This document shows positions 1,451-6,927 of a stretch of DNA of 6,927 bases, one piece after another. A model generated the notes under the pieces. The model had not been told where the DNA came from. It saw nothing but the letters and a program-made list of their open reading frames with translations, and searched no databases. The stretch's first letter is position 1. Every line of letters begins with the position of its first letter. Source of the stretch: Clostridia bacterium (GTDB lineage: Bacteria; Bacillota_A; Clostridia; Peptostreptococcales; JAAYPU01); the NCBI GenBank assembly GCA_022360735.1, contig JAKSCF010000623.1, positions 1 to 6,927 on the forward strand, given 5' to 3'. A program made the translations under genes and the position numbers.

Positions 1451-1465
1451 GGAGTGGAAAAAGTG
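1449..1465 (+). promoter_or_regulatory. Ribosome binding site that fixes the ispH-rpsA start at GTG 1463
   Basis: AGGGAG at 1449-1454 overlaps the rarA stop codon (TAG 1448-1450) and lies 8 nt before GTG 1463. A longer reading from GTG 1454 would begin inside this Shine-Dalgarno and has no ribosome binding site of its own. Starting at 1463 also puts the first iron-sulfur cysteine at residue 12, as in E. coli IspH. The overlap suggests translational coupling with rarA. Confidence 0.75.
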
Positions 1466-3505
1466 GAAATTCAGATTGCTGAACATTCAGGTTTTTGTTT
1501 TGGCGTAAAAGAAGCCATGAAAAAGGCGGAAGAAACCATTGAAATCAATAAAGAAAATGATAAGAAAATATATACATTTGGACCTTTAATACATAATACT
1601 CAAGTCAGTGAGTATTTACAAAAAAAAGGAGTTATTCGTGTCAATACATTAGATGAAGTAGATGAAGGGGCTACCATAATTGTACGTTCCCATGGCGTTC
1701 CAAAAGCATTTTATGAAGAAGCAGATCAAAAAAAAATAGAAGTCATTGACGCAACTTGCATTTTTGTAAGAAAGGTTCAAAAAAAAGCTCAAGATTGTTT
1801 TCAAAAAGGCAAGCAAGTGGTCATCGTTGGCAATAAAAGCCATCCAGAAGTAATTGGAATTAATGGTTGGTGTGATAACAGTGCAATTATAATTGAAAAT
1901 GAAAAAGATGCAGAAAATATTGCTGGTGATAATATTTGTGTCGTTGCACAAACTACTATTACAGAAAGTTTGTGGAATCAGATAGAAAAAGTTTTTAATA
2001 GCAACCTTAAAAATGTTGAATACTATAATACCATTTGCTCAGCAACAGAAGATCGTCAAAAAAGCTGTCAAACAATAGCAAAACAAGTTGATGCAATGAT
2101 TGTCATCGGAGGAAAGCATAGCTCAAACTCACGAAAATTATATACCATAGCGCAAAAATTTTGTAAAAAATCATATTTTATTGAAACAAAATCTGATTTA
2201 CCATTGAATGATTTTAAAAAATGTAATAAAATTGGAATCGCAGCAGGTGCATCGACACCTGAATGGATTATTAAGGAGGTTATTACTACTATGAGTGAAT
2301 TAAGCTTTCAAGGTGAGACTGAAAATATGACTGCAAACGGTTCGCCGGAAAACCAAATGGAAGAATTAATGGATGAGATTGAAAAATCTCTCAGAATTCC
2401 AGGAAGAGGAGAAATCGTAAAAGGAACTATTATTCAAGTAAGAGACAATGAAGTAGTTGTTAACTTGGGATGCAAAAAAGATGGTATTATTCCTAAAGAA
2501 GAGATAACAACTGACATTTCTGCTGATTTGAATAAATTATACAACATTAGTGATGAAATTGAAGCACAAGTTGTAAAAACGGATGATGGTGAAGGCAATT
2601 TACTATTATCTAAAAGAAAATTAGATGTCTATGAACATTGGAATGAAATGAATGAAATATTTAAAGATAAATCCGTTATTGAAGTGAAAGTAAAAAACAA
2701 AGTTAAAGGCGGCGTTATTGCTATTTATAAAGAATTAACAGGTTTTATTCCAATATCGCAATTATCTGATAAATATGTGGAAGATGTAGATGATTACGTA
2801 GGTAAAGTGCTTCCGGTAAAAGTAACGCAGCTTGATAAAAAGAAAAATAAAATCATTTTTTCTCATAGAACATATCTGGATGAAGAAAGAACTAAAAAAA
2901 TAGAGCAAGTCTGGAATAGTATTGCTGAAGGTGATATTATCGATGGTAAAGTCATGAGATTTACAAACTATGGTGCCTTTGTTGATATAGGCGGCATTGA
3001 TGGACTACTTCATATTTCTGAAATTTCATGGGGGAAAATTAATCACCCATCGGATGCTCTTAAAATCGGACAAGAAATAAAGGTTAAAGTGCTTTCTATT
3101 GATAAGGAAAATGAAAAAGTTTCTTTAGGATTAAAGCAAACGACTGCTGAACCTTGGGCAGAAGTAGATAATAAATTCCAGGTTGGGGATGTAATAGAAG
3201 GAAAAGTTGTTCAAATTAAAGAATATGGTGTATTTGTTGAAATAGAACCGGGTATGGACGGCCTAGTTCATATTTCAGAAATGTCTTACAAACATGTAGC
3301 CAATCCGTCCACTGAAGTAGAAATGAATCAAATGGTGAAAGCTAAGATACTCGATATAGATAAAGGCAATAAACGAATCAGTTTGAGTATTAAAGAAACA
3401 CTTGAAAAGCCGGAAGAAGAAGCCCCTGAACAACAGTCAACAGAAAGTCAAGAAAGTCAAGAAAGTCAAGAAAATGAAGAAAGTGAAAATCAAACAGAAG
3501 AATAA
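1463..3505 (+). CDS. ispH-rpsA: Bifunctional 4-hydroxy-3-methylbut-2-enyl diphosphate reductase (IspH) / S1 RNA-binding protein (ribosomal protein S1-like)
   Basis: A 680-residue fusion, numbered from GTG 1463. Residues 1-275 are IspH (LytB), the iron-sulfur enzyme that reduces HMBPP to IPP and DMAPP in the last step of the MEP isoprenoid pathway. The three cluster cysteines are C12 (GFCFGV), C99 (DATC) and C192 (NTICSAT). Substrate-site residues are H44, H77, H127/E129 (SHPEV), the QTT motif (163-165), SSNS (220-223) and S264 (GAST). After a linker come four S1/OB-fold RNA-binding domains at about 316-387, 401-470, 487-560 and 574-647; domains 3 and 4 have the classic YGAFV/YGVFV and GLLHISE/GLVHISE motifs. 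The tail is acidic and rich in Ser, Gln and Glu. The fusion is widespread in Clostridia. The four S1 domains resemble the shorter Gram-positive S1/YpfD rather than six-domain E. coli S1. The residue after DATC is Ile, where Pro is usual. It follows rarA with coupled spacing and ends at a terminator. Confidence 0.95.
   Translation: MEIQIAEHSGFCFGVKEAMKKAEETIEINKENDKKIYTFGPLIHNTQVSEYLQKKGVIRVNTLDEVDEGATIIVRSHGVPKAFYEEADQKKIEVIDATCIFVRKVQKKAQDCFQKGKQVVIVGNKSHPEVIGINGWCDNSAIIIENEKDAENIAGDNICVVAQTTITESLWNQIEKVFNSNLKNVEYYNTICSATEDRQKSCQTIAKQVDAMIVIGGKHSSNSRKLYTIAQKFCKKSYFIETKSDLPLNDFKKCNKIGIAAGASTPEWIIKEVITTMSELSFQGETENMTANGSPENQMEELMDEIEKSLRIPGRGEIVKGTIIQVRDNEVVVNLGCKKDGIIPKEEITTDISADLNKLYNISDEIEAQVVKTDDGEGNLLLSKRKLDVYEHWNEMNEIFKDKSVIEVKVKNKVKGGVIAIYKELTGFIPISQLSDKYVEDVDDYVGKVLPVKVTQLDKKKNKIIFSHRTYLDEERTKKIEQVWNSIAEGDIIDGKVMRFTNYGAFVDIGGIDGLLHISEISWGKINHPSDALKIGQEIKVKVLSIDKENEKVSLGLKQTTAEPWAEVDNKFQVGDVIEGKVVQIKEYGVFVEIEPGMDGLVHISEMSYKHVANPSTEVEMNQMVKAKILDIDKGNKRISLSIKETLEKPEEEAPEQQSTESQESQESQENEESENQTEE
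2274..2293 (+). promoter_or_regulatory. Internal Shine-Dalgarno and ATG at the IspH/S1 junction (possible start for separate S1)
   Basis: AAGGAGGT at 2273-2280 is a full match to the anti-Shine-Dalgarno end of 16S rRNA. It is followed 11 nt later by an in-frame ATG at 2291, exactly where the IspH domain ends and the S1 linker begins. Initiation there would give a 404-residue protein holding all four S1 domains. The site uses AAG and GAG codons in a gene that otherwise prefers AAA and GAA. Spacing is slightly long (optimum about 5-9), so use is inferred, not shown. Confidence 0.5.
3443..3487 (+). repeat. Five 9-bp tandem units in the coding tail of ispH-rpsA
   Basis: Three exact copies of GAAAGTCAA (3443-3469) are followed by two variants, GAAAATGAA (3470-3478) and GAAAGTGAA (3479-3487). 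They encode repeating Glu-Ser-Gln and then Glu-rich triplets in the disordered acidic C-terminus. The unit is a multiple of three, so gain or loss of copies keeps frame and would only change tail length. Confidence 0.85.
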
Positions 3506-5862: not shown

Positions 5863-6366
5863 ATGCGTATATTAGGAATAGATCCGGGTTATGCAATATT
5901 AGGATACGGCGTTATAGAAGTAGAAGGCAATCGTTTTATACCAATGGACTACGGTTCAATTATGACCGACTCAAAAATGATAATGCCATTGAGATTAAAA
6001 AAGATATATAATGAATTATGTGAATTGATCATAAAATATAATCCGGAAGAAGTAGCCATTGAAGAACTTTTCTTCAATAAAAATACCAAGACAGCTTTAC
6101 TCGTAGGTCAAGCCAGAGGAGCTGCCATTTTAGCGTGTGCCAATAATAATATTGAAATATTTGAATATACACCTTTACAAATTAAACAAGCCCTTGTAGG
6201 CTATGGTAGAGCAGAAAAAAAACAAATACAATTGATGGTTAGGCACATTTTAAACCTAAAAGAAACCCCAAAACCAGATGATACAGCAGATGCCCTAGCT
6301 ACTGCAATATGCCATTCAAATTCAAGAACGTATAAAAGAAAAGTTGCCCTAACACGGAATTTCTGA
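5863..6366 (+). CDS. ruvC: Crossover junction endodeoxyribonuclease RuvC (Holliday-junction resolvase)
   Basis: A 167-residue RNase H-fold nuclease that cuts Holliday junctions as a dimer, normally with the RuvAB branch-migration motor. The acidic catalytic set is visible: D7 in GIDPGY, E67 in AIEELFF, and D140 and D143 in PDDTADALA. The segment [19 protein letters not shown] (70-88) and [21 protein letters not shown] are standard family features. Length is typical. The ATG at 5863 is 7 nt after GGGAG; the ATG at 5859 is in another frame. Unlike the common ruvC-ruvA-ruvB order, ruvA does not follow: a repeat array and a lipoprotein gene do. The TGA stop is the first three bases of repeat module A, so the last residues may have been set by that repeat. 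Confidence 0.96.
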
Positions 6367-6440
6367 AGCCCTAGCAGTAATCTTTGATTACGTCGCAGGT
6401 CTTATACAGAAACTCTCCAATCTTTGATTGGCTAAGAGTT
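6364..6440 (+). repeat. Two-hairpin repeat module A
   Basis: First copy of an intergenic module. Hairpin alpha is GTAATC-TTT-GATTAC (6377-6391), with weaker outer pairing between CCTAGC on the left and GCAGG on the right. Hairpin beta is AACTCT-CCAATC-TTT-GATTGG-CTA-AGAGTT (6411-6440). Loop centres are at 6384 and 6424. The first 45 bp (6364-6408) match module B (6488-6532) at 40 positions, and all five differences are transitions. It starts at the ruvC stop codon. No open reading frame is apparent. Confidence 0.85.
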
Positions 6441-6443
6441 TTT
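6411..6443 (+). terminator. Possible ruvC terminator formed by hairpin beta of module A
   Basis: The bulged hairpin 6411-6440 (12 pairs, 3-nt loop, 3-nt bulge) is followed directly by a T run (6439-6443). This is the only hairpin of the array with a downstream T run on the plus strand, so it could end ruvC transcription. The short T run and bulge make it moderate at best. Confidence 0.4.
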
Positions 6444-6448
6444 CAGTT

Positions 6449-6487
6449 TAATTCCGATGTAGGTCATTCGCCACGAGACAGCAATTT
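6449..6487 (+). repeat. Degraded module D, interrupted by module B
   Basis: GTAGGTCATTCG plus ACGAGACAG (6459-6481) matches the alpha-to-beta linker of inverted module C (6614-6636) at 21 of 23 positions. To its left AATTCCGAT looks like a shortened alpha hairpin. To its right the beta hairpin starts as GCAATT and is cut off where module B begins at 6488. It appears to be an older copy broken by a deletion and by module B. Confidence 0.6.
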
Positions 6488-6564
6488 TGAAGCCCTAGCA
6501 GTAATCTCCGATTACGTTGCAGGTCTCATGCAAGGAGAAAGAAATCTCTGATTTCGTCTTCTCC
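6488..6564 (+). repeat. Two-hairpin repeat module B
   Basis: Second forward copy. Hairpin alpha is GTAATC-TCC-GATTAC (6501-6515). Hairpin beta is GAAATC-TCT-GATTTC (6541-6555), with outer arms GGAGAA (6534-6539) and TTCTCC (6559-6564) and a 3-nt GTC bulge. Loop centres are at 6508 and 6548. The alpha half is nearly identical to module A. The beta outer stem differs entirely in sequence from A but is still paired. Confidence 0.85.
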
Positions 6565-6614
6565 ACTGCGGAAGTTAAAAATTACGTAGTCTCGAAGACG
6601 AAATCAAAGATTTC
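6541..6614. repeat. Long inverted repeat between the beta hairpins of modules B and C
   Basis: Positions 6541-6561 and 6594-6614 are inverted repeats matching at 20 of 21 positions, separated by 32 bp. The spacer has a weaker inner pairing (ACTGCGGAA at 6565-6573 with TTACGTAGT at 6582-6590). The region can form either one long hairpin or the two separate short ones. Confidence 0.75.
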
Positions 6615-6663
6615 TGTCTCGTTACGAATGACCTACGACGCAATCCAAGATTGCTGTTAGGTC
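6594..6663 (-). repeat. Two-hairpin repeat module C (inverted copy)
   Basis: Inverted copy. Hairpin alpha is GCAATC-CAA-GATTGC (6640-6654), with outer arms GACCTAC (6630-6636) and TTAGGTC (6657-6663) and a 3-nt GAC bulge. Hairpin beta is GAAATC-AAA-GATTTC (6600-6614), with GA(A)GAC on the left pairing to GTCTC on the right. Loop centres are 6647 and 6607, again 40 bp apart. Read on the minus strand, the linker starts GTCGTAGGTC, like modules A and B. Confidence 0.8.
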
Positions 6664-6679
6664 AACTTAGGAGGATATA

Positions 6680-6927
6680 ATGAGAAAAATTTGCATAATT
6701 TTTTTAATACTACTTTTAGTTTTTACAGTTGGATGCAGTCAAAGTCAGGAGGATACAAGCGGCAATATTGGAATGATTGTATCTAAAGATTTTGGAAAAG
6801 AACTTATTTCAAATATCAGTATAGATTTTTCTGATGGGCAAACCGTTTTAGATATTCTTGAGGAAAATTACGAAATTGAAACAGCATATGGCGGTGGGTT
6901 TGTAAATGGTATTGATGGCCTGAAGTC
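6680..6927 (+). CDS. Lipoprotein with DUF4430-like domain (5' part only)
   Basis: The first 82 codons of a gene that continues past the window. The ATG at 6680 has AGGAGG (6669-6674) 5 nt upstream. The protein begins with a lipoprotein signal peptide: MRK, a hydrophobic stretch (residues 4-18) and a lipobox ending TVGC, so Cys19 would be lipidated and anchored outside the membrane. After a short polar linker the region about 48-82 (DFSDGQTVLDIL, then GGGFVNGIDGLKS) resembles the DUF4430 fold found in cobalamin-binding transcobalamin-like proteins and in lipoproteins near ECF-type transporters. Substrate is unknown, and the domain call rests on a partial sequence. No B12 riboswitch is seen upstream. 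The gene begins 16 bp after the repeat array and has no clear promoter of its own. Confidence 0.75.
   Translation, partial: MRKICIIFLILLLVFTVGCSQSQEDTSGNIGMIVSKDFGKELISNISIDFSDGQTVLDILEENYEIETAYGGGFVNGIDGLK

Follow-up and report, generated by a model that had tools for sequence, protein, structure and literature searches.

Genes of the window and the array behind ruvC

The window, that is the whole stretch of 6,927 nucleotides analysed here, carries rarA, a fusion of ispH and rpsA, recN, argR and ruvC; it also holds the beginning of a lipoprotein-like gene, whose match to DUF4430 lies below the cut-off. In the fused gene (1454-3505), ispH (LytB) and the S1-domain rpsA lie in one frame of 683 aa. 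The best relative of RuvC among GTDB contigs, at 74%, belongs to a metagenome-assembled genome of Anaerovorax odorimutans. In the related genome G041, and also in G001 and G005, RuvC ends in ...KLCLEK or KLCLGY and ruvA and ruvB follow directly. In the window (region 6341-6680), ruvC is followed instead of ruvA by an array of hairpins and then by the lipoprotein-like gene; the missing ruvA reflects either a rearrangement at the repeat or an assembly junction. The features of this region are listed below, with rough E-values of R1, a covariance model built from the units of relatives, element A being one of its 30 training rows.

5863..6366, plus strand: ruvC (Pfam RuvC, 1.1e-52); elements O and A supply the final codons (ALTRNF) and the TGA stop
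6341..6363, plus strand: first piece of module O, comprising its left end plus the 5' half of alpha, CCTAACACGGAATT; identity of joined O to C, 79%
6364..6447, plus strand: element A, TGAAGCC...TTTTTCAGT, with an uncertainty of 1-2 T at its exact end; alpha loop centre 6384, beta 6424; R1 3.4e-25; sits in the alpha loop of O
6448..6487, plus strand: middle piece of O, alpha 3' half AATTCCGATGTAGG, linker, beta 5' half CGAGACAGCAATTT
6488..6569, plus strand: element B, TGAAGCC...CACTGC; loop centres 6508 and 6548; R1 5.1e-13 (6488-6568); sits in the beta loop of O
6570..6594, plus strand: last piece of O, beta 3' half AAAAATTACGTAGTCTCG, complementary to CGAGACAG on the 5' side (judged from the sequence)
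6593..6667, minus strand: element C, inverted relative to O; beta loop centre 6607, alpha 6647; R1 1.1e-7 (6589-6667)

Thus ruvC terminates here in repeat sequence, an example of how hairpin arrays can alter gene ends.

The motif AATCNNNGATT is present six times in the window, at 6379, 6419, 6503, 6543, 6602 and 6642, and the loop centres of the AATC-N3-GATT hairpins (6384, 6424, 6508, 6548, 6607 and 6647) form three pairs, each exactly 40 bp apart, as a preliminary description of the sequence had claimed. Shuffling of the window gave a mean of 0.40 and a maximum of 3 occurrences of the motif, and six were reached in 0 of 200 shuffles. A further point of that description, that two modules are forward and one inverted, agrees with the detection of A and B on the plus strand and of C on the minus strand by R1; the linker starts, described there as shared, read GTCGCAGGTC, GTTGCAGGTC and GTCGTAGGTC. 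A and B begin identically (TGAAGCCCTAGCAG), and the right end of B is of the type found in the copies at L159 and L165 in G041.

A fourth module, O, had been overlooked. It is split into the pieces 6341-6363, 6448-6487 and 6570-6594, and once A and B are removed the joined O aligns with the reverse complement of C at 79% identity (48/61 nt; E 7e-10, the subject set amounting to just 246 letters). O and C share the start AAGTTG. The alpha hairpin of O, CCTAACACGGAATT/AATTCCGATGTAGG, holds element A in its loop, and the beta hairpin, CGAGACAG.../...CGTAGTCTCG, holds element B. Because O resembles the reverse complement of C, and because A and B can be removed from it, the array is an inverted pair O/C with one later insertion per O loop. 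It forms a nest, with A and B in the two loops of the split O, itself paired with the inverted C.

The array folds far more strongly than shuffled sequences (z -12.3). A long stem-loop RNA was considered as the primary unit and rejected; the long fold arises from the inverted pair O/C plus nesting. A search against Rfam returned nothing at gathering score, with one chance match (E 0.86).

Structure of the unit

The canonical unit, of 83-90 bp, reads TGAAGCCCTA-alpha-GCAGGTCTCATACAG-beta-TTTTTCAGTT, with GACTGC as a variant right end; both hairpins are imperfect. The family's length of about 80-90 bp excludes coding capacity for a transposase. The similarity between its two ends, TGAAGCCC... 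and ...TTTTTCAGTT, is by eye only TGAA-like, and long terminal inverted repeats are absent. The inner stems are of 5-6 bp with 3-nt loops; CGTC stands on the 3' side, and in the CAG-type hairpins only. In G041 the spacing between alpha and beta is 40 bp in 16 cases, 41 bp in 16 and 44 bp in nine, and it ranges over 39-49 bp in other genomes. The 40-bp spacing is therefore real and common in G041, but the proposal that the geometry is selected is weaker than it had appeared, because spacings of 39-49 bp occur elsewhere and the linkers of the G041 copies are shared by descent. A pure 40-bp geometry signal was rejected on the same grounds.

Of the 39 distinct units, 30 were used to assess covariation, with a structure drawn by hand from their alignment; units of the GACTGC type and some near-duplicates were excluded. 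Paired cells make up 97.4%, nine of 24 base pairs are changed on both sides, and columns 15/30 show CG, GC and AU. The covariation score of 0.229 compares with 0.072 for shuffled alignments and at most 0.051 for slid partners; one of the five measures, that of further pair types, was no higher than in the shuffles (341/500).

Distribution in Clostridia

The preliminary description had proposed that a covariance model be built and searched in relatives, and a search of this kind, with R1, brought to light many further copies. R1 gave 62 matches in 649 kb of G041 (65 minus three reverse-strand echoes), some of them cut by contig ends, most of these loci having been picked for holding copies and many of the rows having trained R1. 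BLAST with the window DNA gave at least 63 matches in G041, where 40 of 102 candidates were scored, and nine in G001. Cores of the form xAATC(2-4)GATTx' number 134 in the 649 kb of G041; two control words gave 8 and 11. R1 copies were also found in G001, G212, G404, G097, G483, G347 and one locus of G368.

A 20-mer of the CAG-type hairpin occurs in 10 of 297 genomes of the order (1 of 297 for a reversed-pattern control), 22 times in G041, and some of the lone matches, for example that in G056, resemble chance in coding sequence. A strict 21-mer had no match in 33 relatives, G001 included, though a looser pattern and R1 find G001 positive. A different, looser two-hairpin pattern was met in 25 of 391 genomes of the class, with 8 of 391 for the reversed control, and many of the single matches look like chance; several copies were counted in G404 (16), G368 (seven), G001 (six), G669 (four), G326 (two) and G504 (two, which differ from one another). 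When R1 was run over the phylum with strict filters, only two of 299 genomes passed E 0.001, and the canonical unit is therefore rare. Plasmid and phage collections held no match to the element. In IMG/VR, a first pattern hit two contigs, by eye chance matches in coding-looking sequence; a second hit 18, with an R1 E of 0.0034 in one and 0.13 in two, these being coding-like by eye; two further patterns hit none.

Element A is 99% identical to one G041 copy, and the genes of the window (part of rarA, ispH-rpsA, recN, argR and ruvC) are 66-76% identical to theirs. This gap suggests either recent exchange or strong sequence constraint.

Two local hairpin arrangements may be mentioned here. At L091 and L092 (G108, G119), 62-bp tandem units combine a CAGAAATCTTTGATTTCGTC hairpin with a second, unrelated hairpin and adjoin an apparent gene start. 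At L084 and L093 (G289), CAG/CGTC hairpins have an extended outer stem, with a short run of T behind it, and look terminator-like.

Mapping of the copies against gene ends was another proposal of the preliminary description. The copies are intergenic, since none of 40 clusters in G041 and G001 overlaps an ORF (ATG-started, at least 80 aa); their gene arrangements are mixed, with 24 same-direction, five divergent and two convergent pairs among the 31 clusters with both neighbours, nine more lying at contig edges. As regards the strand bias that single-strand transposition would be expected to leave, 15 of 24 are in opposite orientation relative to the flanking genes in G041 and G001. Six of the eight copies in G347 lie in the lagging sense, three of them in a stretch of near-zero skew, with origin and terminus located by GC skew over 26 sampled stretches.

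These data bear on the idea that the hairpins are a structured RNA, or a terminator or attenuator at gene ends, that was secondarily multiplied. The strong covarying hairpins, the fold of the array, the lack of ORF overlap and, by eye, the short T run after two G289 copies would all suit such a function, but the elements stand in both orientations and in every gene arrangement, have no Rfam match at gathering score and form nested and tandem copies, and DNA hairpins predict covariation equally. We consider this explanation very unlikely.

Insertion sites and palindrome targets

In a set of 26 non-tandem sites, TT stands directly after CAG in 26/26 and directly before GAAG in 23/26, and shuffled pairings give the same; the search word TGAAG itself imposes the T before GAAG, and the bases after CAG were left free in this count. 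Beyond the TT the flanks show no duplication, save for three 9-bp matches and one 3-bp match. The three 9-bp matches arise because the target, a heptamer repeat, itself matches. From these flanks, target duplication would be at most 2 bp at most sites, and 2 bp is indistinguishable from none. The family does not fit a DDE-type MITE: long inverted ends are lacking, and outside the heptamer repeats there is no duplication beyond TT except for the one 3-bp match. On the 5' side, beyond T/TT, only C at -2 stands out (16/27 sites), and there is no fixed tetra- or pentanucleotide.

Repeat targets close in phase around the insertion, by eye, as in AATTCT^TAATTC and GCCACGCT^TCGCTCGC, the latter being the type of the copies within REPs at L155, L214 and L215. 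At three G041 loci (L152:10060-10250, L150:9380-9520 and L161:2860-3000) copies lie inside degenerate heptamers (TTAATTC, TAAATCC) whose phase is kept across the insertion.

Nesting is not confined to the window, which contributes two further cases to those of G041. There, four of 40 distinct non-tandem left-end contexts fall in beta or gamma hairpin loops of the family itself, against an expected 0.0046 (P=3.6e-5), the 0.46% being the share of such loop positions in the non-ORF DNA of the same loci. One of the four is present three times but entered the count as a single context, and the test is conservative because the 40 include chance matches of a short word. A general preference for hairpin loops of any geometry across all 27 sites gave no excess (p=0.34). 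Cutting of a 3-nt loop after its second base was seen at 9/29 sites, compared with 3.7% in controls, and at 5/22 with identical 8-mers collapsed, this being the best of 45 geometries. The data safely support recurrent palindrome insertion but not an exclusive preference for loops.

Foreign palindromes are targets as well. In G347, an arm of a GTAG REP precedes seven of eight copies, and both arms are readable in three (L299, L300:13341 and L303), with two different stems; the remaining copy, L304, lies outside a GTAG REP. Beyond these eight, R1 has two further, weak matches in G347. In G404 and G368, copies lie, by eye, inside a GTCATTCTGAGCG-type repeat. One G404 locus (L256:8100-9750, that is G404:C1:213100-214750) consists of six tandem repeats of about 300 bp, each harbouring a single two-hairpin element that lies within a GTCATTCTGAGCG-type repeat.

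Such neighbourhoods raise the question of whether the elements are cargo, spreading from within REP loops because RAYTs move the surrounding REP. The REP arms in G347 fit this, as does the reading by eye that the G404 copies inspected lie inside one repeat type; G041, however, is left unexplained, as the copies there follow diverse sequences on the left (40 distinct contexts) and have ends that belong to the element itself, and copy L304 stands outside any GTAG REP. Passive carriage of this kind thus seems improbable as a general explanation.

Search for a mobilising enzyme

Y1_Tnp matches were found in 6/8, 6/7 and 1/1 carrier genomes of three sets, 42 matches in total. The preliminary description had suggested a RAYT- or TnpA-like gene with similar flanking hairpins as partner; no such partner was found: R1, run over all 42 matches and their surroundings, found the element near one only, a RAYT in G347. 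There an alpha hairpin lies about 0.2 kb off, on one side only, among GTAG REPs. The locus (L300:1100-2000) has a 168-aa RAYT frame and several GTAG REPs with different stems, with the AATC alpha hairpin in between. The other R1 match in the Y1 loci is on contig C101 of G041, 12 kb from its Y1 gene. In three genomes with modules or single hairpins (G669, G119 and G289) there was no Y1_Tnp match, and in G404 only a broken one.

The six Y1 genes of G041 are, by eye, RAYT- or TIRYT-like. At their loci (L181-L186), those on C14, C40, C53, C101 and C109 are bordered by other repeats on either side and that on C77 on the 5' side only. On C101 and C109 these are REPs that terminate in CCTAC (GTAG when read from the opposite strand); the remaining Y1 genes have GGGG- or GGACGG-type repeats.

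TnpB (PF01385) was found in 0/3 genomes searched and the Y2 transposase (PF04986) in 0/10, the latter an outcome without weight, as control genomes gave no match either. Around the 42 Y1 matches in carriers, neither an autonomous relative nor a cognate transposase of the AATC family was found.

This result leads to the question of whether recombination only, by tandem duplication, template switching or gene conversion between palindromes, could have multiplied the units without any transposase. Head-to-tail tandem copies, which account for 10/58 left ends, the 300-bp tandem repeats of G404 and, by eye, a recombined copy at L177 are in keeping with such events, as is the failure of the enzyme search. 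Identical ends recur at dozens of sites, with 40 distinct left contexts of which some are chance words; this speaks against recombination as the sole process, and we regard it as an unlikely one.

Comparison with known systems

The comparisons below refer to the available portions of the cited papers. As described there, PATEs (PMC3119063, PMC7290912) have no terminal inverted repeats and have palindromes near both ends, and both traits are found here; in these sources PATEs are also too short to code, present in high copy number and targets of other mobile elements, which is a further likeness. The palindromes of PATEs match the ends of IS605-type transposons (PMC3119063, PMC7290912), whereas the carriers searched yielded no IS605 element whose ends match, and the fixed target word of PATEs is absent here. 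As to their lack of target duplication, the TT on both sides of our elements at 23/26 sites is no more frequent than in shuffled pairings. Judged by these portions of the literature, the family matches PATEs operationally, except for the IS605 link, the fixed target word and proof that there is no duplication.

With REPs, BIMEs and REPINs (PMC3733652, PMC6006769, PMC8266576), as far as the accessible text describes them, our elements share the character of small, intergenic, high-copy palindromes that form inverted pairs and large combined hairpins. They differ in being two-hairpin units with ends of their own, and no RAYT bordered by them was found. GTAG REPs as defined in the consulted part of PMC3733652 require GTAG or GTGG at the 5' foot of the hairpin, which is absent in the element alignment. 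For CGTC REPs the same text gives a 5' CGTC, a stem of 8-9 bp, a loop of 4-5 nt and a CCA tail (PMC3733652); membership was rejected because orientation and sizes do not fit (CGTC on the 3' side, stem of 5-6 bp, loop of 3 nt). Words starting with Clostridi or Firmicutes are absent from the main text of PMC3733652.

That the family is a classical REP/BIME of the GTAG or CGTC super-family kept by a dedicated RAYT is a proposal already weakened by these differences. It would account for the short, high-copy intergenic palindromes, the inverted pair O/C, the CGTC beside some hairpins, the RAYT-type genes in G041, G001 and G347 and the one G347 RAYT close to an alpha copy. However, the GTAG foot is absent, CGTC is on the 3' side of one hairpin type only, stems and loops are smaller than the 8-9 bp and 4-5 nt of the definition, the Y1 genes of G041 are flanked by other repeats (five on both sides, C77 on the 5' side), and the unit consists of two different hairpins in direct order, unlike an inverted REP pair. 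Little weight can be given to it.

TIRYT genes, which in the sections consulted likely correspond to subclass 2.1 of PMC6006769 and to the GGGGWSAS repeats of PMC3733652, have by eye similar Y1 genes in G041, but the repeats flanking these (GGGGTCAG and GGGGACGG types) have no relation to the AATC elements. Among insertion sequences, members of IS3, IS110, IS4, IS256 and IS5 target REPs, according to the available text (PMC1525189). They resemble our elements in using palindromes as landing sites (PMC1525189, as far as accessible) and differ as full transposons with their own gene from the non-coding units of about 85 bp described here, which enter their own as well as foreign palindromes.

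Nature of the elements and a possible mode of movement

The units are dispersed, their hairpins covary, their ends are repeatable and their insertions are nested; the suggestion of the preliminary description, that this is a dispersed palindromic element of REP/PATE type, is thereby supported. By their anatomy they are PATE/REP-like non-autonomous elements. Mobility in trans of the single-strand Y1 (HUH) type would follow by analogy with these systems. We thus favour, with a probability of about 0.7, a clostridial family of short, non-coding, non-autonomous mobile elements, made of two hairpins with AATC-N3-GATT tips about 40 bp apart, which insert next to T/TT in intergenic DNA and palindromes and are probably moved as a single strand by Y1 in trans.

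Under this reading of the family, an element would leave as folded single-stranded DNA, and a candidate Y1 (HUH) transposase would cut and join it in trans, the mode described for PATEs and proposed for REPs. Entry would occur next to T/TT in intergenic DNA and repeatedly into palindrome loops, those of the family's own hairpins and of unrelated REPs. In the window, the inverted pair O/C lies behind ruvC, A and B having entered the two loops of O.

The array itself is real and, as non-autonomous palindromic mobile DNA, ordinary in kind; the nested loop insertions and the missing enzyme are unusual. A bolder proposal is that the elements form a distinct class of miniature mobile DNA across Clostridia, with AATC-N3-GATT tips, entering the loops of their own and foreign palindromes so that nested 'Russian-doll' arrays arise, and moved in trans by a single-strand-acting enzyme new to such a role; this we regard as a tentative and rather doubtful possibility.

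REP-like repeats with no known transposase are an open question, and CGTC REPs are, in the part of PMC3733652 available, apparently such a case. As the family offers repeatable ends, dozens of copies and readable nestings, the insertion chemistry, the choice of target and the search for the enzyme are accessible to testing. The nestings also show that arrays of hairpins can grow by insertion into loops.

In the open-licence literature, mostly titles and abstracts, no description of an AATC-N3-GATT family was found, and other occurrences of the element words look, by title and among the matches listed, incidental. In the rRNA spacers of Clostridium difficile, as covered by the available portion of PMC3090617, an element word is present in one AAATCTTTGATTT palindrome, which is not treated there as a repeat family.
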